A stretch of 33,219 nt of DNA from Bacteroidales bacterium (GTDB taxonomy: Bacteria > Bacteroidota > Bacteroidia > Bacteroidales > P3). The stretch lies in the NCBI GenBank assembly GCA_017960605.1, contig JAGCYV010000007.1, positions 1-33,219 of the forward strand, given 5' to 3'. Below are positions 1,873 through 33,219 of the stretch, piece by piece. The position numbers and the translations under genes were made by a program. Below the pieces are notes generated by a model, which worked only from the letters and a program-made list of their open reading frames with translations, was not told the origin of the DNA and did no database searches. Numbering within the stretch: the stretch's first letter is position 1; each line of letters opens with the position of its first letter.

Positions 1873-2695
1873 CTTCCATACCCACAGCCACTACTGCGAC
1901 GGCCAAGGCGAACTTCGCGACTATGTCGAACTGGCTGTTGCCAACGGCTTCGACGCACTCGGATTCAGTGGCCATGGACCTGTGCCTTTCGAGAACAAGT
2001 TTTCCATCAAGGACGACCAATACCTGAACTACTGCAACGAAGTAAGGGCACTGAAGGAAGAGTACAAAGACCGCATCGACATCAGTTTGGGGTTGGAGAT
2101 TGACTATATCCCCGGCATGCTGGAGGATTTCGCCCAACTGATAGAAAAGGGTGGGTTGGAGTATGTCATCGGCAGTGTGCATCTGATACCCGCCAACGAC
2201 CGTCCGCAGAGCGTCACCGACCTGTGGTTCATCGACGGCCCACGGCAGGAGACCTACGACAACGGCTTGCGCATCCTCTTCGGAGGCGACATACGCCGTG
2301 GGGTGAAGGCCTACTTCCGTCAGCAGAACGAGATGATTGTCAGGAACCATCCCACCATCGTAGGCCATCCCGACAAGGTGGCCATGCACAACCGCGGACG
2401 CTACTTCTCGGAGGAGGAACCTTGGTATCTCAACCTGGCCATGGAAACCCTCTCACTCATCCATGAGCAAGGGCTTATCTGCGAACTCAACACCCGCGGC
2501 ATCTATAAAGGGCGGCATCCTGACTACTACCCCTCCAGACAGCTGATCAAGGCCATGGAACAATGGCGCATTCCTCTCTTGGTGAGTACCGATGCCCATT
2601 CTCCAGAAGACCTGCTGCGCACCGAAGGAGCTTACGAATACCTGCACGACATTGACTACCCTGTCGTGCTGCATTCCTGGAAACAACGAACCTAA
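1862..2695 (+). CDS. PHP-family phosphatase, probable histidinol-phosphatase (HisJ/HisK type)
   Basis: 277 aa starting MLSNFHTHSHYCDG. The upstream open frame is out-of-frame porin sequence, and this ATG puts the first metal motif right at the N-terminus, as usual in the family. PHP-type metal ligands are visible in order: HTHSHYCDG (residues 6-14), the GLEIDY acidic motif, GSVHLI, VGHPDK and STDAHSP near the C-terminus. In the HisJ family this set of ligands holds a trinuclear metal centre that hydrolyses L-histidinol phosphate to histidinol, the penultimate histidine-biosynthesis step. The family assignment is strong. The substrate is inferred, since other small phosphate esters are possible and no other his gene is nearby. 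It overlaps the upstream gene by 11 nt and lies 10 nt before the M1 peptidase gene. Confidence 0.8.
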   Translation: MLSNFHTHSHYCDGQGELRDYVELAVANGFDALGFSGHGPVPFENKFSIKDDQYLNYCNEVRALKEEYKDRIDISLGLEIDYIPGMLEDFAQLIEKGGLEYVIGSVHLIPANDRPQSVTDLWFIDGPRQETYDNGLRILFGGDIRRGVKAYFRQQNEMIVRNHPTIVGHPDKVAMHNRGRYFSEEEPWYLNLAMETLSLIHEQGLICELNTRGIYKGRHPDYYPSRQLIKAMEQWRIPLLVSTDAHSPEDLLRTEGAYEYLHDIDYPVVLHSWKQRT

Positions 2696-2705
2696 TCTGA
2701 ATGGT

Positions 2706-5024
2706 ATGAAAAGATATTTTTCACTGACTATCCTCTTTTTATTCTTCCTCCTACCACAGGCCGGACGAGCACAAAGCACCGACTCGGTCGATGTGTTGGA
2801 CTATGATGTCGCCCTCGACCTCAGCCACGGATCTCCCTACACGGGCGATGCCATGGTGACCCTGCGTCTACTGCGCGGCTGCGACACCATCGGTCTCGAA
2901 CTGATAGGCACCGTCGATTCCCTGTGGGTCAATGCCTCCGCCATTGCCAGTCCCCGCCTCTCGGCCATTCCCACCAGCGGCATCGCCGTGGGCGACACCT
3001 TCACAGTGCGTGTCTGCTACCACGGCACCGGATATGTGGAGGGTTACGGCTTCGGGGGGCTTCATTTCGACAACGGACTCACCTACAACCTCGGTGTGGG
3101 CTTCAACACCGCCCCCCACCCCATCGGACGTGCCATCATGCCCTGTCGCGACAACTTCCACGACAAAGCCACCTATACCCTGCGGATGCATACCAAAGCC
3201 GGATGGAGTGCCGAATGCAGTGGCATGCTGGTCAGCCGTGAGACCCTGGAAGACAACACCGAACGCTCGGTGTGGCGAGTCGGACACCCTGCCTCGACCT
3301 ACCTCATCGGCATCAGCCAAGCCAACTGGCACCGCTACCAACATGACATTGTTTCCGTCAATGGCACCTATCCCCTCACCGTCGGCTACCGCAACCAATC
3401 CAGCAACTCCATCACACGGGCCTTTGCCGAACTCGACTCCGTGGTGCCGATGTTCGAACGCTGCTTCGGTCCTTACCAATGGGGGCGTATCGGCTACGTC
3501 ATCACCCCGTTGGGTTCGATGGAACACGTGACCAACATTGCCTTGGCCGAGCAGGCCGCTACTCCCTCATCAGAACTGGGACAAAGCACCATCGCCCACG
3601 AACTGGGTCATGCCTGGTTCGGCAACCTTATCACCTGCGGCCATGAGGGCGACATGTGGATTAACGAAGGCGGAGCCTCGTTCACCAGCGAGGTAGCCAA
3701 AGAAAGCACTTCGGGACGCGCCGAATCGAACAAATACTATCAAAACAACCTCGAAAAGGTGATACGCGAGACCCACATCAAAGACGGAGGTCTCTATCCC
3801 CTCAGCGGTATGCCTCACAGCATCACCTATGGTTCCACCACCTACGACAAAGGCTGGATGGTTTGGCACTCACTGCGCGGATATCTGGGCGACTCGCTGT
3901 TCTATGCCTGTGTGCGGCGGCTGATGGAGAGTAAAGCCTTCGACACTGTCGATGCATACGATGTGCGCGACTCGCTGAGCCTCTACAGCGGTGTCGATCT
4001 CACCGACTTCTTCGACTTCCACGTCTTCAGCCCGGGCTTTGTTGATTACCATGTGGAACTCGACGAGCCGGGATGCCTACTGAATGAAATAGGAGTATTT
4101 GTCCGGCAGCAGAGCGTAGGCACCGTGAACACTTTGCGTTCCCATCGAGTACCCATTACTTTCTTTGCGGAGCCTGGCTTTGATTCTACAATGTGCAAGC
4201 GAGTGATTGAGTTTGAGGGAAGTGAAGGTTATGCTGTGCTCCATCTACCTTTTACACCCGCCTATTATGTACTCGACTACGACTGCGAGATTTCCGATGC
4301 CGCTATCGTGGCCGAAGTGAATATGAACGGTGCCGAGATCCGTACCGCCGGCGATGCCCACATGCGCATCCTCCGCACCGCCTCCCAACCCAACAACCTG
4401 CCTCTCATCCATGTGGAGCACCACTGGGGCCATCCTTGGGATGCCGACACGGTGAGCGGCGTGCGTCGCACCGCCAACCGCTACTGGATTGTACGCAGCT
4501 CGCAAACGGCGTTCCAGGGTCTGCAAGGACAGTTCCTTTTCGTGCGTGAGGCCTATACCAGTGGCAGTTACCCCCACCTCGACCCAGACCTCATTCCACA
4601 AACGGCCTCGCTCGACTCGCTGGCTCTACTCTACCGGAAAGATGCCAACCACCCCTGGGTGGCCCTCTCGCACCGACGCACCGGCGACAACGAAGGCTAT
4701 CTGCTTACCGACAACCTCCGCACAGGGGAATACACCTTAGCCATCATCGACACCTCCCTCATGGGTATCCCCACACCCACAACCCCTGACAACGGATGCC
4801 TGCTGACCCCCAACCCTGTCACCCGTGGCGAAGCCTTCTCCCTGCAAGCACCCACCAACGCCCCCTTCACGGTCTGCATTTTCAACACCGCAGGCCGTCG
4901 CGTATGGCAGAAACAAGGGTGTCGCAACGGCGAGAAAATCAAGCCACGTCTGGCTTCCGGAACTTATTTGGTGCTGATTGAAAATAAATTCGTATCTTTG
5001 CAGTCGAAATTGATAGTGCTATGA
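2706..5024 (+). CDS. Secreted M1-family metallopeptidase with T9SS sorting domain
   Basis: 772 aa. The start at 2706 is chosen because it opens directly into a signal peptide (MKRYFSLTILFLFFLLPQAGRAQ). The N-terminal region has the beta-rich fold expected of M1 aminopeptidases. The exopeptidase motif GAMEN is replaced by GSMEH at residues 270-274. The zinc site is complete: HELGH at 298-302 and the third ligand Glu321 in WINEG. The last ~80 residues (LTPNPVTRG ... SGTYLVLIENK ... SKLIVL) form a T9SS type A sorting domain, so the enzyme should be exported through the outer membrane and anchored or released there. Peptide degradation for nutrition is the likely role, inferred from family and location. 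It is followed with a 4-nt overlap (ATGA) by the barrel gene. Confidence 0.9.
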   Translation: MKRYFSLTILFLFFLLPQAGRAQSTDSVDVLDYDVALDLSHGSPYTGDAMVTLRLLRGCDTIGLELIGTVDSLWVNASAIASPRLSAIPTSGIAVGDTFTVRVCYHGTGYVEGYGFGGLHFDNGLTYNLGVGFNTAPHPIGRAIMPCRDNFHDKATYTLRMHTKAGWSAECSGMLVSRETLEDNTERSVWRVGHPASTYLIGISQANWHRYQHDIVSVNGTYPLTVGYRNQSSNSITRAFAELDSVVPMFERCFGPYQWGRIGYVITPLGSMEHVTNIALAEQAATPSSELGQSTIAHELGHAWFGNLITCGHEGDMWINEGGASFTSEVAKESTSGRAESNKYYQNNLEKVIRETHIKDGGLYPLSGMPHSITYGSTTYDKGWMVWHSLRGYLGDSLFYACVRRLMESKAFDTVDAYDVRDSLSLYSGVDLTDFFDFHVFSPGFVDYHVELDEPGCLLNEIGVFVRQQSVGTVNTLRSHRVPITFFAEPGFDSTMCKRVIEFEGSEGYAVLHLPFTPAYYVLDYDCEISDAAIVAEVNMNGAEIRTAGDAHMRILRTASQPNNLPLIHVEHHWGHPWDADTVSGVRRTANRYWIVRSSQTAFQGLQGQFLFVREAYTSGSYPHLDPDLIPQTASLDSLALLYRKDANHPWVALSHRRTGDNEGYLLTDNLRTGEYTLAIIDTSLMGIPTPTTPDNGCLLTPNPVTRGEAFSLQAPTNAPFTVCIFNTAGRRVWQKQGCRNGEKIKPRLASGTYLVLIENKFVSLQSKLIVL
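4967..5000 (+). promoter_or_regulatory. Bacteroidota-type promoter inside the end of the M1 gene
   Basis: TATCTTTG at 4993-5000 fits the TAnnTTTG -7 box and is followed by CA. TTTG at 4967-4970 lies 22 nt upstream as a possible -33 element. It would start transcription about 15 nt before the barrel gene at 5021, giving it and rbfA independent expression. It lies in codons for the T9SS tail. Confidence 0.5.
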
Positions 5025-22737: not shown

Positions 22738-24114
22738 ATGGAATTACCCTTTGCAGAAGCCTGGAAAATCAAAATGGTTGAGCCGATCAAGAAGAGCACC
22801 CGCGAGCAGCGCGAGAAATGGCTCAACGAGGCTCATCAGAATGTCTTCATGCTGAAGAGCGACTATGTCTATATCGACCTGCTGACCGACAGCGGCACCG
22901 GCGCCATGAGCGACCGCCAGTGGGCGGCCATGATGATGGGCGACGAGAGCTACGGCGGCGCCCGTTCGTTCTACCACATGAAAGACACCATCACGGAGCT
23001 GACGGGCTTCGAGTATGTGATCCCCACCCACCAGGGCCGTGCCGCCGAGAACGTGCTGTTCAGCTACCTGGTGAAGCCCGGCAACATCATCCCCGGCAAC
23101 GCCCACTTCGACACCACCAAGGGCCACATCGAGAGCCGCAAGGCCTTCGCCATCGACGTGACGGTGCCCGAGGCCTACGACACCCAGCTGGAGGTGCCGT
23201 TCAAGGGCAACGTGAGCCTCGAGAAGCTCGAGAAGGTGCTGAAAGAGAACCAGGGCAACGTGCCCTTCATGGTGCTCACCGTCACCAACAACACCGTGGG
23301 CGGCCAGCCCGTCTCGATGCAGAACATCCGCGAGACCTGCGAGCTCTGCCACAAGTACGGTGTGCCGGTGAACGTCGATAGCGCCCGCTTCATCGAGAAC
23401 GCCTACTTCATCAAGACCCGCGAGAAAGGCTACGAGAACAAGACCCTGCGCGAGATCTGCAAGGAGATGTTCAGCTATGCCGACAGCATGACCATGAGCG
23501 CCAAGAAGGACGGCCTGGTGAATATGGGCGGCTTCATCGCCACCAACAAGCAGGAGTGGTACGAAGGCGCCAAGATGTTCTGCATCCCCTTCGAGGGCTT
23601 CCTGACCTACGGCGGCATGAACGGCCGCGACATGGACGCCCTGGCCGTCGGTCTGAAGGAGAACATCGAGTTCGAGATGGTGGAGACCCGCATCAAGCAG
23701 GTGCACTACCTGGCCCAGAAGCTCGACGAGTACGGCATCCCCTACCAGCGTCCCGCCGGCGGCCACGCCATCTTCGTCGATGCCGACAAGGTGCTGACCA
23801 ACATCCCGAAGGAGGAGTTCCCCGCCCAGACGCTGACCTGCGAGCTGTACCTCGAGGCCGGTATCCGCGCCTGCGAGATCGGCTATGTGTTGGCCGACCG
23901 CGACCCCGTGACCCGCGAGAACCGCTTCGGAGGCAACGACTTCGTGCGCCTCTGCATCCCGCGCCGCGTCTATACGAACAACCACATGGACGTCATCGCC
24001 GCCGCCCTGAAGAATGTCTATGACCGTCGCGACACCATCAAGCGCGGTCTTGAGATTACCTGGGAGGCCGAGCTGATGCGCCACTTCACCTGCCAGTTCA
24101 AGCGTCTCGGTTAA
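22738..24114 (+). CDS. tnaA: Tryptophanase
   Basis: 458 aa, a PLP-dependent beta-eliminating lyase that cleaves tryptophan to indole, pyruvate and ammonia. The N-terminus MELPFAEAWKIKMVEPI is that of Bacteroidales tryptophanases. DLLTDSGTGAMSD, IPTHQGRAAENV and the PLP lysine in MSAKKDGLVNMGG are visible. The close relative tyrosine phenol-lyase is disfavoured at three discriminating places: Asp in HFDTTKGH (Thr in tyrosine phenol-lyase), Ile in CEIGY where that enzyme has Arg, and His in LMRHFT where it has Phe. Codon use is strongly biased to C-ending codons, suggesting high expression. It has its own promoter, a long leader and a strong terminator, so it is probably monocistronic. Confidence 0.94.
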   Translation: MELPFAEAWKIKMVEPIKKSTREQREKWLNEAHQNVFMLKSDYVYIDLLTDSGTGAMSDRQWAAMMMGDESYGGARSFYHMKDTITELTGFEYVIPTHQGRAAENVLFSYLVKPGNIIPGNAHFDTTKGHIESRKAFAIDVTVPEAYDTQLEVPFKGNVSLEKLEKVLKENQGNVPFMVLTVTNNTVGGQPVSMQNIRETCELCHKYGVPVNVDSARFIENAYFIKTREKGYENKTLREICKEMFSYADSMTMSAKKDGLVNMGGFIATNKQEWYEGAKMFCIPFEGFLTYGGMNGRDMDALAVGLKENIEFEMVETRIKQVHYLAQKLDEYGIPYQRPAGGHAIFVDADKVLTNIPKEEFPAQTLTCELYLEAGIRACEIGYVLADRDPVTRENRFGGNDFVRLCIPRRVYTNNHMDVIAAALKNVYDRRDTIKRGLEITWEAELMRHFTCQFKRLG

Positions 24115-24116
24115 AC

Positions 24117-24188
24117 TGGGTGACTAAGTTACTGAGTGACTGGGTGACTAAGTGACTGGGTGACTGGGTTGCTGAGTGACTGAGTATC
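24117..24188. repeat. Nine-copy 8-bp tandem repeat after tnaA
   Basis: Nine units in strict 8-bp register, consensus TGAGTGAC/TGGGTGAC: TGGGTGAC, TAAGTTAC, TGAGTGAC, TGGGTGAC, TAAGTGAC, TGGGTGAC, TGGGTTGC, TGAGTGAC, TGAGTATC. It begins 2 nt after the tnaA stop codon and ends 15 nt before its terminator. Confidence 0.92.
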
Positions 24189-24404: not shown

Positions 24405-25256
24405 ATGACGAAGAAACAAACCATACAACTCTTTGAGGAACACAAGGTGCGCACCGCATGGGACAGCGACACTGAGAAGTGGTTTTTTTCTGTGATTGAC
24501 GTTGTTGCCGTATTGACCGACAGTGACTATCAGACCGCCCGAAAATATTGGAAAGTACTGAAGGGCAGATTGATAAAGGAAGGAAATGAACTGGTAACAA
24601 ATTGTTACCAGTTGAAATTCTTGGCTCCTGACGGCAAACGGAGACTTACTGATGTAGCTGACACCCAACAACTTTTCCGTATCATCCAAACCATTCCATC
24701 TCCTAAGGCAGAGCCCTTTAAACAATGGATGGCACGTGTGGCCGCCTTGCGTCTCGACCAAATGCAAGACCCCGAACTCTCTATTGACCAAGCTATGGCC
24801 GATTACCGACGTCTCGGTTATAGTGAAGCCTGGATTAACCAACGCATCAAATCAATAGAGGTTCGCAAACACCTCACCGACGAGTGGAAACGGGCCGGAT
24901 TGGAGGAAGGCCCACAATTTGCCACCCTTACCGACATCATCTATCGCGGGTGGAGCGGACTGACGGCAAAAGAGTACAAACAATACAAGGGCTTGAAGAA
25001 AGAGAACCTACGCGACAATATGACCGACCTTGAGATAGCTATCAACATGCTGGCCGAAGCCACCACCACGCAGATATCCAAGAACGAGAATCCACGGGGG
25101 ATGTCCGAGAGTATCGGCATCGCGCGACGAGGTGGACACACGGCCCGCACGGCGCGAGAAGCGGCAGAGCGGGAAATTGGACAATCTGTCGTCTCCCGCG
25201 AAAACGCCAAGAGTCTTATTGCACCAGAAGAAAAGAAATTACTGAAAAACCAATAA
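24405..25256 (+). CDS. Bro-N / DinD-like protein (phage antirepressor family)
   Basis: 283 aa. Residues about 8-105 fit a Bro-N domain, a DNA-binding domain of phage and virus antirepressors: KVRTAWDSDTEKWFFSVIDVVAVLTDS, ARKYWKVLKGRL, LKFLAPDGKRRLTDVADTQQLFRII. The C-terminal part (about 170-275) resembles DinD (GWSGLTAKEYKQYKGLKKENLRDNMTDLEIAINMLAEATTTQI, GGHTARTAREAAE). Such Bro-N plus DinD proteins are common in Bacteroidales outside prophages; their function is unproven, with DinD itself reported to inhibit RecA filaments. Base composition is lower in GC than tnaA, which suggests acquisition. It has its own promoter and lies 21 nt before the giant repeat protein gene, so cotranscription is possible. 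No phage genes are nearby. Confidence 0.85.
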   Translation: MTKKQTIQLFEEHKVRTAWDSDTEKWFFSVIDVVAVLTDSDYQTARKYWKVLKGRLIKEGNELVTNCYQLKFLAPDGKRRLTDVADTQQLFRIIQTIPSPKAEPFKQWMARVAALRLDQMQDPELSIDQAMADYRRLGYSEAWINQRIKSIEVRKHLTDEWKRAGLEEGPQFATLTDIIYRGWSGLTAKEYKQYKGLKKENLRDNMTDLEIAINMLAEATTTQISKNENPRGMSESIGIARRGGHTARTAREAAEREIGQSVVSRENAKSLIAPEEKKLLKNQ

Positions 25257-25277: not shown

Positions 25278-28200
25278 ATGAATAAAAAACTACATGATAT
25301 GGACCATCTGAAAGGATTCACTACGAATGGAAAGAGTAACAAGCGAGGGGGCCTGAAGGGGCTTCTGGTGCGGGGCGGAGCCCTGGTGCTGATGCTGTGG
25401 GCGGCACTGCCGGCAATGGGGCAAAGCTATGTGTTCCTGTACAAGAATGGGAATACCGTCTATTTCTTGTACAATAACAACAGGGCTGTTGGTCGGACCG
25501 AGACGTTCAATACTTCCACCTGTATTTTCACTGGCACAGGGACCTCGTCATCCACATTTTACAACGGAGACCGATACCTACAGAGAAACACCAACACTTT
25601 AAGATTCTATACCACTTCCACCACATGGACGATTACAACATACGGAAGGGTTCAAAACAGCAACCGATATATCCGCTACTACAATAACGGCTGGACATCG
25701 CTGAACAACACAAATGGAGGTGACCCCGGTACATCCACTGACTATACCGTCCTGTTCACCTACAGCAACCCGACATTGATTACCATTACCTCTATCACTG
25801 GCGACGAGGTGCTAACCACTACGGGTAGCCATAATTACAGCGCCACCGGAAAAGCGATTCAATTCCACCAGTTCGACGGTTATAGCGGCACCACACCGAC
25901 ATCCTATTACTGGTATAGCGATGCTTTACAAACAGAACTTCCGACTCCTACTTCTTCTGACGGTGTATCCTATTCATGGAGCCTCAATGCCAACGGTGCC
26001 AATGCCAGCGTAAATAGCAGCAATGGTACTATTACCGTCAATGCATTGCCGGCCTCTGACGTCGCTATGACGCTCACATGTACTGCCAGCAAAAACGGAG
26101 AATCCGCCACCACTACCAAGACGGTGTATCTATTGGCGGAGAATCCATCAGCACCTGTCATTTCACTATACGGGAGCAGCCAGGCTCAGATTACCTGCCC
26201 GTCGCCGAATGTCACTATCTATTACACCACCGACGGCAACACGCCCACCAATGGGGACACCGAATACAGTGACCCGTTTGCTATCGACTGCCCCACCACC
26301 ACGGTGAAGGCCATCGCTGTCCGTAATGGACACAGTTCGACTGTCGCCAACACGACGCTGACCTGCAAGGTGCCTACGCCCGTCATCACCATGGACGGCG
26401 CCAATGCCACCATCGCCCTTGGTGCAGGTTCGCCCAACGGTACCGCGCTCTATTACACCACCGACGGCACCACGCCCTCCGATGCAAGCACCCCGTACAA
26501 CGGCAGCCCGGTGACCCTCACCAACACACAGACCATCAAGGTCATCGCCGTCAAGAGCGGCTATACCAACTCCGATATTGCTTCTGCCGATTATATTGTT
26601 GAAGGTGTAAATGGCGGTTATGTCGTCCTTGACGACCGCGAGGAGCACAGCTGGAGTTACTATAGCGACACGCGGCTGCCACAGATGATGCGCAGCCTCA
26701 ACCCAGCCGATGTGAAGATTACCTATAATGGCAATGGAACAGGTACTGTGCAGACAAACAATAGTGATACTCCAGAAACATGGGGCGCTGATGCTTCCGG
26801 TGTAAAAGTGGGCATCGATGCCAATGCCAGCACATTCATATACTACAAAACGCTGGAGCGCACCGATGGCAGTTCGTCGGACAATCCCACCGGACGCTGC
26901 TCATATACCACCATACCCAATCCTTTCAGTGTACGTCCCACCTACGACAGCGACGGCACCTCGAAATACCGCGGCTTCTATGCCTGGCGTGTCAAAAGCC
27001 TCAGCGGCGGCACCATCCATAGCGCAGCCTCTGGCGGTACCAGCTATGGTGTAGGCAGCACCATCAATGCGGAAACCGAGATATTCTTTGCCCCTTCAAA
27101 CGAGTATGGCATGGAGGTGGAATTCGAAGCCTTATGGGCCAGAGCGTATGTCAGCACTACCGGTGTTCCCAATTACAGCCTCGGCGTGGAGCGCAACTTC
27201 TACGTCATCACGGCCAGTGCCAACAGCAATATCACCGCAGGAAACAACCCCTGCACCTATACTTCCATCTACCCCAACGGTACCACCAACGGCACATCTG
27301 CCGCCAGTTCAGTAACTGTTTACAAATATGGCACCTTCTCAGCTAGTGCCGACAGCAAGATTGAGTACATTATTCTGCGAAACAACAACAGTACAATCAG
27401 CGCTGCTGGTAATAATTTTACAATAGGCCGCGGTGTGACGGGATACAACAGCGGAGTATGTGCGACAACTTTTAATGGCCTCTCGGGAACCAAAACGTCA
27501 AATTTCAAGCTCCGTATTGAAAGTGGCACCTATACAGATTTCTATTTCATGGGAACAAGCAGTATGACAAGCGGGCTTTTGACTGCCACTCTGGGTTGTG
27601 ACTATGACCGAGCCAATAACAAGGACAACACGAAACTCCGTATCACTCATGATATTTGTGCCTCCAACGGAGGAACTATCGGCGCTGATGGAAGCATCGG
27701 TACGGAGATTTTCAAATGTACGGTTAAAAGCGGTAACTTCGACCTCGGAGTATATGGTGGCGCATATCAATTCTACATTTCCTCTCCTGGTGGAAATGCT
27801 TGGGGAAAACGAACCCTTATTATTGAGGGTGGTTATTTTTCAGATATTGCCGGAGGTATTGACAGAAACGGACAAAACAATCTAGCCAATATCAACGCCA
27901 CACTTGTTGACATCAGAATTAAAGGAGGAGAGAGTGTCGGAGCTGTCTTCGGAGCTGCGCAAAGGTCTGCTTCGTATGGCGACCGACGTATAGTAATTAC
28001 CGGCGGCACCTTCTCCGGATGGATTGCAGGAGGTGCCAACGGAACCGACAATTCGGGCGGACAGATGGGCGGTGCCTCTTATGTGTATGTAGGTGGTACA
28101 GCAAGGGTTGATAGCGATAGTTCCACATCCCTCATCAACCGTGCAGTTGGCGGCAATGTGTTCGCTGCAGGTTGTGGCTTTGGCGATGGGACTTCTTCTG

Positions 28201-29468
28201 GACAAGTGAAAGTAGGAACTAATATAGCTATTGCTGACGATGCCTATATAGAACGTGGTGTCTATGGCGGCGGCTCGTTTGGCTACACCACAACCTACTC
28301 CAATATCTACTTGATGGGTGGCACGGTAGATTGCATCGGTGGTGGCGTCACTTCTGCCGGCACCGGCTATAGCAACACAGTCAAGGGCGGCATCTATGGC
28401 GGAGCCTGCCAGAACGATGCCGGCCAAACCAATGTCTATGTCTATGGAGGCTCGGTGAACGGCGGCGTCTATGGTGGCGGCAATGTCAGCGGTGACGTTG
28501 CTGGGCCTATCAATGTCGATGTGTATGGCACCGACCCGCAGCCGGGCAGCGGCTACGCCATCAACCAGGTGTTCGGCGGCGGCAACGCGGCCAACTACAG
28601 CGGCACACCGGTGGTGACCGTGCACGACGACAACGGCTGCGACATCAGCATCGGCGAGCTCTATGGTGGCGGCAACGCCGCCACCGTCACGGGTACCAAC
28701 GTCACCGTCAGCGGTGGCAACCGCATCGGCAACGTCTATGGCGGCTGCTACGGCGCCGACGTCACCACCAACGGCACCAAGGTGAACATCAAGGGCGGCA
28801 CCATCGAGCACGTCTATGGCGGCAACAACTACAGAGGCACCATCACGGGCGCCATCAGGGTGCGTGCCCACAAGGACAGCGACTGCCCGATGAAAATCGG
28901 CGAGCTCTACGGCGGCGGCAACCGGGCCGGCAGCGCGGCCGGCAGCATCGACATCGGCTGCACCGGCACCTATGTGGAGGGCGTTGGCGGCCACGCCGAC
29001 TGCAACGAGACCGACAACCGCATCGGCTATGAGCTGGAGGGTATCCATGAGGTCTATGGCGGCGCCAACCAGGCCAACATCACCGGCGACATCAGCCTGA
29101 CCATCGACAGCGGCATGGTGTATCGCGTGTTCGGCGGCAACAACAACAGCGGCTCCATCAGCGGCACCATCACGGTGAATATCCAGAAGACCAACCCCAA
29201 CACCTGCGGCTGGTACGTGGGCTATGTGTATGGCGGTGGCTTCAACGCGCCCTACAGTAAAGAGGGCACCGCCAACAACCCGTCGGTGAACGTCAGTGCC
29301 GGCCTGGTGAGCCACAGCGTCTTCGGCGGCGGCAAGGGCGACGATGCCGACATCACCGGCAACCCGCGGGTGACCCTCAGCGGCACGGCCCAGGTGGGCG
29401 AGAACGTCTATGGCGGCGGCGACGCGGCCGACGTGATTGGCAACACCAGCGTGATCCTCAAGGATTAA
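25278..29468 (+). CDS. Giant secreted repeat protein 1, beta-solenoid-like
   Basis: 1396 aa. A basic extended N-terminus precedes a signal peptide (core GGALVLMLWAALPAMGQ, cleavage near 48). Residues 49-165 are Tyr/Asn/Thr-rich and unrecognised. About 170-285 looks like an Ig-like fold. About 288-368 and 365-442 are two repeats of a chitobiase C-terminal-like module, each with YYTTDG(N/T)TP. A unique region follows. From about 890 to the end come roughly 14 units centred on [V/L/I]-[Y/F]-G-G-[G/N/A], usually with a GN or G.(V/I) strand between, suggesting stacked rungs of a parallel beta-helix. The protein stops inside such a unit (NVYGGGDAADVIGNTSV) and lacks a T9SS tail or any cell-wall anchor. 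The last third is much more GC-rich than the first two thirds. The role may be a surface or adhesin-like protein; this is inference. Confidence 0.8.
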   Translation: MNKKLHDMDHLKGFTTNGKSNKRGGLKGLLVRGGALVLMLWAALPAMGQSYVFLYKNGNTVYFLYNNNRAVGRTETFNTSTCIFTGTGTSSSTFYNGDRYLQRNTNTLRFYTTSTTWTITTYGRVQNSNRYIRYYNNGWTSLNNTNGGDPGTSTDYTVLFTYSNPTLITITSITGDEVLTTTGSHNYSATGKAIQFHQFDGYSGTTPTSYYWYSDALQTELPTPTSSDGVSYSWSLNANGANASVNSSNGTITVNALPASDVAMTLTCTASKNGESATTTKTVYLLAENPSAPVISLYGSSQAQITCPSPNVTIYYTTDGNTPTNGDTEYSDPFAIDCPTTTVKAIAVRNGHSSTVANTTLTCKVPTPVITMDGANATIALGAGSPNGTALYYTTDGTTPSDASTPYNGSPVTLTNTQTIKVIAVKSGYTNSDIASADYIVEGVNGGYVVLDDREEHSWSYYSDTRLPQMMRSLNPADVKITYNGNGTGTVQTNNSDTPETWGADASGVKVGIDANASTFIYYKTLERTDGSSSDNPTGRCSYTTIPNPFSVRPTYDSDGTSKYRGFYAWRVKSLSGGTIHSAASGGTSYGVGSTINAETEIFFAPSNEYGMEVEFEALWARAYVSTTGVPNYSLGVERNFYVITASANSNITAGNNPCTYTSIYPNGTTNGTSAASSVTVYKYGTFSASADSKIEYIILRNNNSTISAAGNNFTIGRGVTGYNSGVCATTFNGLSGTKTSNFKLRIESGTYTDFYFMGTSSMTSGLLTATLGCDYDRANNKDNTKLRITHDICASNGGTIGADGSIGTEIFKCTVKSGNFDLGVYGGAYQFYISSPGGNAWGKRTLIIEGGYFSDIAGGIDRNGQNNLANINATLVDIRIKGGESVGAVFGAAQRSASYGDRRIVITGGTFSGWIAGGANGTDNSGGQMGGASYVYVGGTARVDSDSSTSLINRAVGGNVFAAGCGFGDGTSSGQVKVGTNIAIADDAYIERGVYGGGSFGYTTTYSNIYLMGGTVDCIGGGVTSAGTGYSNTVKGGIYGGACQNDAGQTNVYVYGGSVNGGVYGGGNVSGDVAGPINVDVYGTDPQPGSGYAINQVFGGGNAANYSGTPVVTVHDDNGCDISIGELYGGGNAATVTGTNVTVSGGNRIGNVYGGCYGADVTTNGTKVNIKGGTIEHVYGGNNYRGTITGAIRVRAHKDSDCPMKIGELYGGGNRAGSAAGSIDIGCTGTYVEGVGGHADCNETDNRIGYELEGIHEVYGGANQANITGDISLTIDSGMVYRVFGGNNNSGSISGTITVNIQKTNPNTCGWYVGYVYGGGFNAPYSKEGTANNPSVNVSAGLVSHSVFGGGKGDDADITGNPRVTLSGTAQVGENVYGGGDAADVIGNTSVILKD

Positions 29469-29512
29469 TAAGAAATACATCGACAGACTAAATTAAGGAA
29501 GAAAAACAATAT

Positions 29513-32500
29513 ATGGTTATGAACAATAATAGACTAAGTAGCTTTTTGAAACGATTCTGCACCGGCGTGGTGCTGGCGGGCATGATGGCCTTCTGCACCT
29601 CGCAGGCGGCGGCACAGAGCCATGTCGTGGTGAACGGCAGCGTCTTTGGCGGCGGCAACGCGGCTGAAGTCAGCGGCAACACCTCGGTGCTGATGCAGCA
29701 AAACGCCACCGTCGTGACGGCCGTCTATGGCGGCGGTGCCTTCGCCAGTACCGGCACCTACGGGACCACCACCACCACCGTCACCATTGAGGGCGGCACG
29801 GTGGGCGACGGCACCCCAGGCAACGGCAATGTGTTCGGCGGCGCCCTGGGCGACGGCAGCCACAGCCCCTTGGTGAACGGCAAGGTGACGGTGAACATCG
29901 GCACCGCAAACCAGACCTCCCCCACCCAGGTGGATGAAGTGGATAACTACAACAACGTGGTGATCACAGGAGCCGTGTTCGGTTGCAACAACAGCGCCGG
30001 CACGCCGATGGACAGTGTGAAGGTGAACATCTATCACACGGCCCATACGGCGGCCAATGCCGTCAGCGGGAGCACCTATGCGCTGAGCCAGGTGTTCGGC
30101 GGTGGCAACCAGGCCTCCTACACCCCCACGGCGGCGAACAAAGCGATTGTTTTGCATGTCCATAACTGCGACAACACCATTGGCTACCTCTACGGCGGCG
30201 GCAACGCGGCCAACGCAGGTACCAGCGGAGGGGTCGAGGTCGATGTGAAGACCGAGATTGATGGCGGCCGCCACGACTGGATTTTCGGCGGCGGTAACGG
30301 CGCCGGTCCTACCAACCCGGGCGCCAACATCTATGGCGACGTGACGCTGACGGTGCATGCCGGCAGCTATCAGCACCTCTTCGGCGGCAGCAACGAGAAG
30401 GGTGTCATCTCGGGTTCCACCAACGTGCAGCTGCTGGGCGACGGCTCCTGCGGCCTGCGTACCATCACCGAGCTCTACGGCGGCAACAACCTGGCGCCGG
30501 GAACCGATGCCTCGCTGACCGTGAGCTGTAACGCTGATCCGGCAAAGCGGTGGACGGTAGGCTCCATCTATGGCGGCTCGAGGAACGCAAAGCTCACGGG
30601 CGACGTGGAACTCACTATCGAGGGCGGCACCTTCACCAATGTCTTCGGCGGCAACAACGCCGGCGACACCATTAGAGGAGACGTGACGCTCAACCTCTAT
30701 GGCGGCACCATCACCAATGCCTTCGGCGGCAACAACGCCGGCGGCAACATCCTGGGCGACATCACCCTGAACGTGACCGACGCCGGCAACGACTGCCCGC
30801 TGAACGTGGATTACATCTATGGCGGCGGCAACGAGGCAGCCTATACTCCCGCCAATGCCAGCACCCTCCATCCGGAGGTGAACATCAACCACCTGCGCAG
30901 CGGCTACAAAGTGAACTACGACGTCTATGGCGGCGGCCTGGGCGCCACGGCCACGGTGACGGCCAACCCGGTGGTGAACATCGGCGACGACAATGCCAAC
31001 CACTATGCCACCGTGGGCCACAACGTCTATGGCGGCGGCTCGCTGGCCGACGTCATCGGCAACACCAATGTGAATATCACGGGCAACGGCCATGTGGGAG
31101 CTACCGACCCCTCGCAGACCGACGGTTTCGTGTTCGGCGGCGGCAAGGGTAGCATCACCGATCCCCAATACGCCAACGTCAAGGGCAACACCCACGTCGT
31201 CATGACCGACGGCTATGTGCACAACACCCTCTTCGGCGGCGGCGAGCTGGCCCTGGTGGGCGACTTCAAGCTTGCCGACGCTGACTATGCGACGGCCCAT
31301 CCTACTTTCGTTGAAGGGGAGCCCTACTCACTTAAGACGGCCAACACCGGCCGCTGCCTGGTGGAGATCAGCGGTGGCCAGATAGGCCACAAGGACGCCA
31401 CCCTGAAACAGGATATCGGCTATGTGTTCGGCGCCGGCATGGGCGTCTATACCGACCCCCATGCAGCCCACGAACCCGCCCCCTCGGCCATGAACGCCCG
31501 CTTCGGCTACGTCAACACCGCCGAGGTGCAGATCAGCGGCACGGCCTTCATCGTGGGCGCCGTATGGGGCGGCAGCGAGAACGGCCAGGTGCTCGACAGC
31601 TGCGGCGTCAAAGTGAGCGGCGGCCAGATAGGCACCGGCTATGACTGGAAGAACAAAGTGGGTAAAGGTCTCTATACCACCCTCCAATGGGATGAAGCCG
31701 TTGCAGCCGTCAAGGCCCAAGATGCCTCGCGCATCAACGACATCGCCGCTGCCATGCCGGAGTGCTACCACTGGCCCTTCGGCCGCGAAGAGAATGGTGT
31801 GACCCACTATCTGCCCTACGACCCCTACGCCTCCCTCTACGGCGCCACCGACGCCAGCGAGAACGCCGGCGACGGACATACCTTCTTCGGCAATGTGTTC
31901 GGCGGCGGCTCGGGCTACTACGCCTACAAGTCGGGCACCGAGGCCCCCTATACCATCGACTGGTATGACTTCCAAGGCCGTGTGCGCGGCAACACCTATG
32001 TGGAGATCAGCGGCGGACATATCCTGACCTCGGTCTATGGCGGCTGCGAGTATGCCGACGTGGTGGGCGACTGCCGCGTGGTGATGACCGGCGGCACCCT
32101 CGGCCTGCCGCGAACCCTCGACTCCATCACCGACCACCCCGTGACCAGCTACCTCTTCGGCGCCGGCAAGGGTGACCAGCGCACCGAGTTCAACATGCGC
32201 ACCAATGTGCAGAATGTCAACGTAAAAGTCAGCGGCGGCCTCATCTTCGGCTCCGTCTTCGGCGGCGGTGAGGACGGCCACGTGCTGGGCAACGCCAAGG
32301 TGACCATCGACAGCGCTGCCTGGATCGGCACCTGGGGCACCTCGTATGTCGATGGCAACATCTTCGGCGGCGGCCGCGGCTTCGGCGGCACGGCCTACAC
32401 GGCCGGCTCCATCGGCGGCAACGTCACAGTCAATATCAACAACGATACCGTGGCGGGCACTCCTGTGAGGCCCATCATGCTCGGCTCCGTCTACGGCGGC

Positions 32501-33219
32501 GGCCGTCTGGCCTCGGTGGGTACCCATTTCGTGGAGACCACCGACCCGCGCTACAGCATGCTGCAGGGATCCTTCACCGACAACACCGGGCATACTGATA
32601 TCCCTGTCGACACGGCACAGGCCCAGTACCACGGCAATATCACCATCAACATCACCGGCGGCACCATCGGCAACCTCAGCGAGCTCACCCACCCCGCCTT
32701 CGACCCCGCCGCGAGTTACAGCGTGGGCGACGTGGTGGCCTACCAGAACCAGATGTACCGTTTCACCAGCGCACATCCCGCCGGCGCATGGAACCAGGCT
32801 CATGTCACCGACATCGTGCACACCACCGGCGGCAACGTCTTCGGCTCGAGCATGGGACGCCTGTTCAAGCTCGGCGCCACCGACGAGACCGACCCCAACA
32901 GCTTCCTGCGCATCTGGCCCGGCATGGCCAAATGCCGTAACACCCAGATTAACATCAGCGGCGACGCCACTATCTATAGTAATGTATATGGCGGCGGCGA
33001 GCTGGGCTATGTGATGAAGGACACCAAGGTGACCATCGACGGCAGCGAGGTGACCATCGGCCACGGCGTGGCCACGGGCACCACCGACGCCTGCTACCTG
33101 GGCTCCGTCTATGGCGGCGGCTACGGCAGCGACAACATCACCGAGCACACCAACGACACGATAAGCATCACCACCACCAACGGCTTTGTGACGGCGGCCA
33201 TGCATGCCGGCCGTGTCTA
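29513..33219 (+). CDS. Giant secreted repeat protein 2, beta-solenoid-like, 3' end outside window
   Basis: At least 1235 codons without a stop, running off the right edge. Start ATG 29513 (or 29519), 44 nt after gene 1. The signal peptide has core CTGVVLAGMMAFCTSQAAAQ. Repeat units begin only about 8 residues later (GSVFGGGNAAEVSGNTSV), so there is no N-terminal head as in protein 1. About 28 [Y/F/W]-G-[G/A/C/S] units are visible. Some are preceded by Cys at fixed distance (C-x7-YGG), shared with protein 1. Around residues 1066-1103 there is an insertion resembling a small carbohydrate-binding module (YSVGDVVAYQNQMYRF ... AGAW). A 26-residue unit is duplicated in tandem at 30623-30778. Function unknown; surface display is inferred from the signal peptide and repeats. 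Long open frames on the opposite strand are a by-product of GGC/GCC-rich repeats. Confidence 0.82.
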   Translation, partial: MVMNNNRLSSFLKRFCTGVVLAGMMAFCTSQAAAQSHVVVNGSVFGGGNAAEVSGNTSVLMQQNATVVTAVYGGGAFASTGTYGTTTTTVTIEGGTVGDGTPGNGNVFGGALGDGSHSPLVNGKVTVNIGTANQTSPTQVDEVDNYNNVVITGAVFGCNNSAGTPMDSVKVNIYHTAHTAANAVSGSTYALSQVFGGGNQASYTPTAANKAIVLHVHNCDNTIGYLYGGGNAANAGTSGGVEVDVKTEIDGGRHDWIFGGGNGAGPTNPGANIYGDVTLTVHAGSYQHLFGGSNEKGVISGSTNVQLLGDGSCGLRTITELYGGNNLAPGTDASLTVSCNADPAKRWTVGSIYGGSRNAKLTGDVELTIEGGTFTNVFGGNNAGDTIRGDVTLNLYGGTITNAFGGNNAGGNILGDITLNVTDAGNDCPLNVDYIYGGGNEAAYTPANASTLHPEVNINHLRSGYKVNYDVYGGGLGATATVTANPVVNIGDDNANHYATVGHNVYGGGSLADVIGNTNVNITGNGHVGATDPSQTDGFVFGGGKGSITDPQYANVKGNTHVVMTDGYVHNTLFGGGELALVGDFKLADADYATAHPTFVEGEPYSLKTANTGRCLVEISGGQIGHKDATLKQDIGYVFGAGMGVYTDPHAAHEPAPSAMNARFGYVNTAEVQISGTAFIVGAVWGGSENGQVLDSCGVKVSGGQIGTGYDWKNKVGKGLYTTLQWDEAVAAVKAQDASRINDIAAAMPECYHWPFGREENGVTHYLPYDPYASLYGATDASENAGDGHTFFGNVFGGGSGYYAYKSGTEAPYTIDWYDFQGRVRGNTYVEISGGHILTSVYGGCEYADVVGDCRVVMTGGTLGLPRTLDSITDHPVTSYLFGAGKGDQRTEFNMRTNVQNVNVKVSGGLIFGSVFGGGEDGHVLGNAKVTIDSAAWIGTWGTSYVDGNIFGGGRGFGGTAYTAGSIGGNVTVNINNDTVAGTPVRPIMLGSVYGGGRLASVGTHFVETTDPRYSMLQGSFTDNTGHTDIPVDTAQAQYHGNITINITGGTIGNLSELTHPAFDPAASYSVGDVVAYQNQMYRFTSAHPAGAWNQAHVTDIVHTTGGNVFGSSMGRLFKLGATDETDPNSFLRIWPGMAKCRNTQINISGDATIYSNVYGGGELGYVMKDTKVTIDGSEVTIGHGVATGTTDACYLGSVYGGGYGSDNITEHTNDTISITTTNGFVTAAMHAGRV
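30623..30778 (+). repeat. 78-bp tandem duplication within giant gene 2
   Basis: Copy one 30623-30700 and copy two 30701-30778 encode 26-residue units of the form GGT(F/I)TN(V/A)FGGNNAG followed by a GD(V/I)TLN strand. DNA identity is highest over the first ~43 bp of each copy. Confidence 0.8.

Follow-up and report, generated by a model that had tools for sequence, protein, structure and literature searches.

The DNA analyzed here (hereafter, the window) is a 33,219-nt stretch comprising an entire contig (C34; JAGCYV010000007.1) of a Bacteroidales genome that amounts to 1.91 Mb in 78 contigs and is 78% complete. At its 3′ end lie two adjacent open reading frames (ORFs), here termed p1 and p2, which an earlier note, made from the letters alone, had described as encoding giant repeat proteins with signal peptides. 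The two ORFs lie as that note had placed them, and both N-termini read by eye as signal peptides. The contig terminates within p2, whose 3′ end lies beyond it. A single gene broken by a frameshift was ruled out, because p2 begins 44 bases past the p1 stop in another frame, with a separate start and a signal-like segment of its own. The following features, including two repeat modules (A and B), were assigned to the pair:

25278–29468, plus strand: p1, an ORF of 1396 aa with a signal-like N-terminus, head domains and a predicted C-terminal repeat solenoid finishing on a bare unit.
26187–26357, plus strand: the best Fn3_assoc stretch of p1, aa 304–360 (PF13287, 86.3 bits, cut-off 23; PF13290, 75.8 bits, cut-off 22).
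26595–29465, plus strand: p1 aa 440–1396, middle domain and solenoid modeled as one chain with AlphaFold 2 (AF2; alignment A3, 17 rows).
28134–29462, plus strand: the p1 copy of module A, aa 953–1395 (profile match, model positions 8–487 of 532).
29406–29465, plus strand: the terminal unit of p1, with the last GGG 15 residues ahead of the stop (from the sequence).
29513–33217, plus strand: p2, an ORF open at its 3′ end, 1235 aa read, with a signal-like N-terminus followed by repeats.
29606–31261, plus strand: module A of p2, aa 32–583 (profile match; alignment A2; AF2 model of aa 36–588).
29618–29656, plus strand: the first unit of p2, immediately past a putative AQ cleavage site (from the sequence; relatives have the same pattern).
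30923–33217, plus strand: the module B region of p2, aa 471–1235, overlapping the end of module A (profile match; alignment A1).
32696–32803, plus strand: a CBM_5_12-like stretch of p2, aa 1062–1097 (PF02839, 25.9 bits, slightly below the cut-off of 26.2).

Both proteins carry the same repeat. In its strict form, [VLI][YF]GG[GN], the motif occurs 10 times in p1 and 18 times in p2 (28 in total), as compared to means of 0.16 (maximum 3) and 0.10 (maximum 1) in 200 residue shuffles per protein, ruling out a chance origin. A loose form, [VLIA][YF]G[GACS], matches 17 and 30 times, respectively. The count of more than 40 units put forward in the earlier note therefore holds for the loose form (47), but not for the strict one. 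The motifs are spaced irregularly, the commonest spacing in p2 being 32 (4 of 29 gaps), and they are distributed differently in the two proteins: one loose match of p1 lies at aa 297 and the remaining 16 from aa 825 onward, its first half consisting mostly of head domains (Fn3_assoc and CHB_HEX_C_1, PF13287 and PF13290, in two stretches apiece in a Pfam scan), whereas in p2 the repeats set in almost at the start of the mature protein.

The repeat family had been proposed to lack a name, and this held in the libraries searched. With Pfam (E up to 1), no family was listed over the repeats of either protein, nor was any curlin or classical beta-helix family listed for p1 or p2. Fimbrillin domains were absent from both proteins in Pfam and NCBIfam, and Pfam listed no translocator barrel or two-partner-secretion domain for p1. 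NCBIfam returned nothing for p2 and a single match for p1, NF042962, which we discarded as it reached 20 bits against a cut-off of 1200 bits and sits on the Fn3_assoc part. An existing Pfam or NCBIfam repeat family was thus ruled out, there being no model that covers the units. Sequence searches of the Protein Data Bank (PDB) with p2, and with a profile built on its second part, found nothing, and the two matches of p1, to MetB (E 0.0047, aa 892–990) and to an F5/8-type protein (E 0.059, aa 303–368), were judged to be chance or head matches. A phage family was ruled out by PHROGs, with one match for p1 (E 0.058) and zero for p2. Matches to Peptidase_M26_N in relatives were read as GLUG-type stretches rather than a peptidase. 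Literature searches for the motif or the family, with most subscription papers and preprints outside their scope, found no paper on it.

Matches to p2 were found in 17 genomes out of 61, a set made up of 37 members of the source genus (including the source genome) and 24 other members of the order; all 17 fall within the genus, and a module A profile matched in 7 of 295 genomes sampled evenly across the order, again with the source genome included. A scan of genome contigs confirmed 196 matches, and the 80 best, which were retained, make up 77 loci. Their titles all name Bacteroidetes, Bacteroidia, Bacteroidales or lower groups thereof, and 57 of the 77, by our own reading, name a ruminant, its rumen or another gut site, or a RUG isolate (RUG standing for rumen genome); by these titles, relatives of the source bacterium live in ruminant guts. 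Two are isolates according to their record titles, Prevotella sp. tc2-28 (locus L107) and P. lacticifex (L126). The family includes single open frames of more than 7000 residues, every one of them still open at the end of its locus; far longer proteins exist elsewhere, according to PMC13104272.

The earlier note implied one uniform repeat array, and this picture gave way to one of ordered modules. When p2 aa 1–600 was compared with other repeat proteins, 371 matches ran along nearly the full query (at least 480 query residues, with a mutual overlap of at most 100 residues). An alignment of 38 copies of module A (A2) keeps the order of the units and contains four invariant cysteine columns. In profile mapping, p1-type proteins have module A C-terminally, and many p2-type proteins have it N-terminally as well as close to their end, with stretches of module B in between. 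The module B region of p2 is 48–81% identical to six relatives (A1, which excludes locus L021).

The fold of the repeat module is well supported by modeling. The AF2 model of module A (p2 aa 36–588, 38 copies) has a pLDDT of 93.7 and a pTM of 0.93, is nearly all beta, and places two strands in each regular unit of ~31 residues, as in the pairs 242–246/249–255, 268–272/281–287 and 298–302/313–318. The model of p1 aa 440–1396 (17 rows) has a pLDDT of 84.1 and a pTM of 0.86, its final predicted strand occupying residues 952–956 of 957. Structure prediction, named in the earlier note as a check, thus returned a confident beta fold of stacked units, and the beta-helix rungs pictured there stand in modified form, the regular units being two-stranded.

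Foldseek searches against the PDB gave, at E up to 10, 46 matches for module A and 76 for p1 (of which we considered the best 50), none at or below 0.001; among the best 50 of 170 matches to viral models, likewise, none reached 0.001 (best 0.0029). The lowest E for module A belonged to the curli subunit CsgA (8c50; E 0.08, TMq 0.18, not significant), and its maxima were 0.24 for TMq and 0.35 for TMt. Many of the other weak matches are beta-solenoid proteins, including RsaA, PL6 lyases and autotransporters. The module is thus likely a beta-solenoid, with an exact geometry unmatched among the structures searched; weak Foldseek matches do not in themselves establish a new fold.

The ends of the proteins often fall on whole units. 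In many p2-type proteins, the first unit follows a few residues past the putative AQ cleavage site. Among 110 distinct C-termini (from complete ORFs of at least 300 aa with at least 4 loose motifs, collapsed on their last 25 residues), the last motif is at most 35 residues away in 85 and 12–22 residues away in 80; random cuts (1000 rounds) placed on average 24.9 of the 110, and never more than 41, in the latter range. A stricter terminal-unit pattern matched 64. A further repeat ORF of 1283 aa in the source genome (contig C16; locus L136, 7389–11240, minus strand) also has a bare-unit end. For 57 pairs of adjacent repeat genes, the upstream protein ends on a unit in 45 and both proteins present a unit at the junction in 29. 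Joining the ends in silico gave GGG-to-GGG spacings of 26–39 with a median of 29 (22 pairs after filters on tail and lead length, the same base conditions giving 57 pairs). These fall inside the 10–90% range of the spacings within the proteins, 26–91, for which the median is 41 and the modes are 34, 26 and 25. For p1 and p2, the joined spacing would be 33 if the mature protein is taken to begin at an early Q, and 28 with the AQ site.

Repeat genes also often travel together. Out of 50 module B-containing proteins (hereafter, bodies; distinct, on the plus strand, with an intact start and no less than 1.5 kb of sequence in view upstream), a repeat gene lies at most 1.5 kb upstream in 31, a p1-type domain is fused on in five, and 14 show neither. 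The tandem pairing whose constancy the earlier note had wanted checked is hence common, but not universal.

The neighborhood of the bodies often holds further partners. In all eight same-genus module B clusters with readable surroundings—their third genes having been selected because the starts were visible at the edges of earlier locus stretches—the body is followed by (or, in G016, lies divergent from) a third large repeat protein bearing a type A sorting domain of the type IX secretion system (T9SS), with 36.7–54.6 bits for TIGR04183 (cut-off 23) and 37.2–51.8 bits for PF18962 (cut-off 27). In this respect, the third proteins resemble known T9SS type A substrates. A gene that looks lipoprotein-like by eye follows the third repeat gene in these eight clusters, and its products are related to each other (33–46% identity in pairwise BLASTP). 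As to the idea of one structure built from two parts, the frequent adjacency of repeat genes is supported, but the clusters often have more than two parts. In the window, as in G002, the contig terminates inside the body; a third gene may have followed in this cluster, too. The source genome contains 36 TIGR04183 matches above the cut-off (only sorting domains were searched), which suggests, at the level of sequence, that it has a working T9SS.

A second arrangement is present on another contig of the source genome (C43). Here, a 4573-aa repeat ORF carries, near its start, three CHB_HEX/Fn3_assoc stretches, along with a ricin-type lectin domain above the cut-off. Upstream, separated from it by three smaller ORFs, lies a 4053-aa repeat protein (38355–50516, minus strand) with a tail that looks like a sorting domain by eye; TIGR04183 had no match on this contig. 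An upstream partner with a similar tail (a large ORF, by eye) was seen at 12 of 16 loci, adjoining the body or one gene apart, and these 12 ORFs align to the 4053-aa protein with 41–64% identity. Ahead of the 4053-aa gene (L162/L163) come a DUF3575 gene above the cut-off, a gene with a sub-threshold DUF5119 match, and a series of genes that we read as encoding fimbrillin-like lipoproteins; the latter have no model match above the cut-off and none to a fimbrillin model. The gene run looks like a type V fimbrial operon.

Taken together, we tentatively read p1 and p2 as parts of a fiber-like system of the cell surface, in which uncapped solenoid proteins would stack end to end and be held by a T9SS partner where one is present; we rate this as possible, somewhat short of an even chance. 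Each regular repeat would be one two-strand coil of a beta-solenoid, the coils being grouped into modules A and B, and the proteins would begin or finish on a coil without a cap. With open ends in matching register, the bare C-terminus of p1 could dock onto the bare N-terminus of p2, which may in turn dock onto further repeat proteins. The co-encoded repeat protein with the sorting domain would bring the assembly to the outer surface or keep it in place there, helped in anchoring by the lipoprotein-like partner, and the heads (Fn3_assoc/CHB_HEX in p1, the ricin-type lectin in the 4573-aa relative) may bind carbohydrate or other surfaces. The more specific proposal, that several giant proteins dock via open solenoid ends and that members lacking a C-terminal sorting domain are exported or held outside through one member with a T9SS signal, we consider unlikely as it stands.

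Curli provide a precedent for stacking across subunits with full- or half-repeat ends: according to PMC10192328, CsgA subunits are stacked head to tail into one continuous solenoid and have such tails. Like CsgA of Pontibacter korlensis (PDB 8c50), which is built of beta-arch repeats, the present proteins would consist of stacked solenoid repeats with open ends; unlike it, they comprise ordered modules with invariant cysteine columns, range from 1396 to more than 7000 aa (as opposed to 355 in 8c50), and match neither a curlin profile nor, significantly, the 8c50 structure. The p1 and p2 units are also longer than curlin repeats. The long beta-solenoids of autotransporters and two-partner-secretion proteins (Hap, 3syj; Ag43, 7koh; HMW1, 2odl) recur among the weak Foldseek matches, but at E of at least 1.1 (0.68 for IgA1 protease, 3h09) and TMq of 0.12–0.22, and Pfam listed no domain of this kind for p1 or for the part of p2 that lies on the contig.

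Several observations weigh against stacking held by a T9SS partner. The relatives are not independent counts. Only 33 of the 57 downstream proteins start on a unit, and the filters on tail and lead length limit the joined spacing beforehand. Unlike a T9SS type A substrate, p1 has no sorting domain in its last 150 aa, where Pfam and NCBIfam (E up to 0.1) list no family at all, and the last 150 aa of the p2 orthologue in G009 are equally devoid of a sorting domain or any other family in both libraries. Because its tail lacks this domain, p1 was rejected as a T9SS substrate in its own right. In PMC10994853, the sorting domain is described as bound within the pore of SprA, with a fusion devoid of it used as a secretion control. 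Seven same-genus loci with repeat proteins and without module B (L046, L047, L048, L055, L056, L057 and L136) show no tail-bearing third repeat protein, and the third repeat gene of L066 itself finishes on a bare unit. In the source assembly, at its 78% completeness, neither the remainder of p2 nor a third gene was found. As for the second arrangement, the tail of the 4053-aa protein matched no family or model, four of the 16 loci have no tail-bearing upstream partner in view, and of five such tails compared with TIGR04183, three pass, one falls below the cut-off and one has no match.

It is also possible, and almost as likely, that these are independent giant beta-solenoid adhesins or stalks, with the bare ends and the adjacency arising from gene duplication and whole-unit recombination. 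Array growth via unit duplication could likewise produce whole-unit ends, 14 of the 50 bodies have neither an upstream repeat gene nor a fused p1-type domain, and several p2-type proteins finish, by eye, in an Fn3_assoc/CHB_HEX-like domain. What speaks for docking over such independent proteins is the tight phase of the ends (80 of 110), the existence of the five fusions to a p1-type domain, and the clustering of module B bodies in the genus with a sorting-domain partner.

We regard it as improbable that the proteins serve as a scaffold or store, either periplasmic or released in outer-membrane vesicles, with the linked T9SS protein secreted alone. The signal-like N-terminus of p1, together with a tail that lacks a sorting domain and no listed export domain, would fit such a location. 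However, Fn3_assoc/CHB_HEX and ricin-type lectin heads are usual in secreted carbohydrate-active proteins, and the linkage to repeat proteins with sorting domains recurs. Quite improbable is a role as accessory proteins, comparable to Porphyromonas gingivalis Mfa5, at the tip of type V (Mfa/Fim-like) pili. The DUF3575, sub-threshold DUF5119 and lipoprotein-like genes upstream of the 4053-aa protein would argue for it, as would Mfa5 itself, described in PMC7835359 as a large, ancillary tip protein that is encoded in a fimbrial operon and has a von Willebrand factor domain as well as a T9SS-targeting domain. Against it, the lipoprotein-like genes lack any match above the cut-off, and no such genes were seen beside p1 and p2 among those window ORFs that were read, by eye only. 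In Foldseek, Mfa5 (6to1) is a weak match to p1 (E 1.1, among the best 50 of 76). We know of no repeat array of the present kind in Mfa5.

The family has no repeat model in the libraries and no significant match among the structures searched, its related clusters often include a partner with a surface-export signal, and its proteins may build large surface fibers. If the open-end reading is true, they would represent a naturally occurring collection of solenoid modules with end-to-end joining, and would offer a direct test of whether the T9SS exports or displays partners that lack a sorting domain. With two members present in isolates by title (L107 and L126), the family is accessible to experiments.

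Elsewhere in the window, a Bro-N gene (24405–25256; PF02498, 36.4 bits, cut-off 25.6) with a weak likeness to DinD (27 bits against a cut-off of 242) directly precedes p1; at L065, L091 and L107, other small genes precede the repeat gene. Farther upstream, a short tandem repeat with 8- and 24-base periods (24115–24185) comes right after a gene that looks tryptophanase-like by eye (22738–24114). At 2592–5024, the window also encodes an 810-aa protein, aminopeptidase-like by eye, whose C-terminal T9SS type A sorting domain (C34:4806–5018) scores above the cut-off at 36.9 bits.

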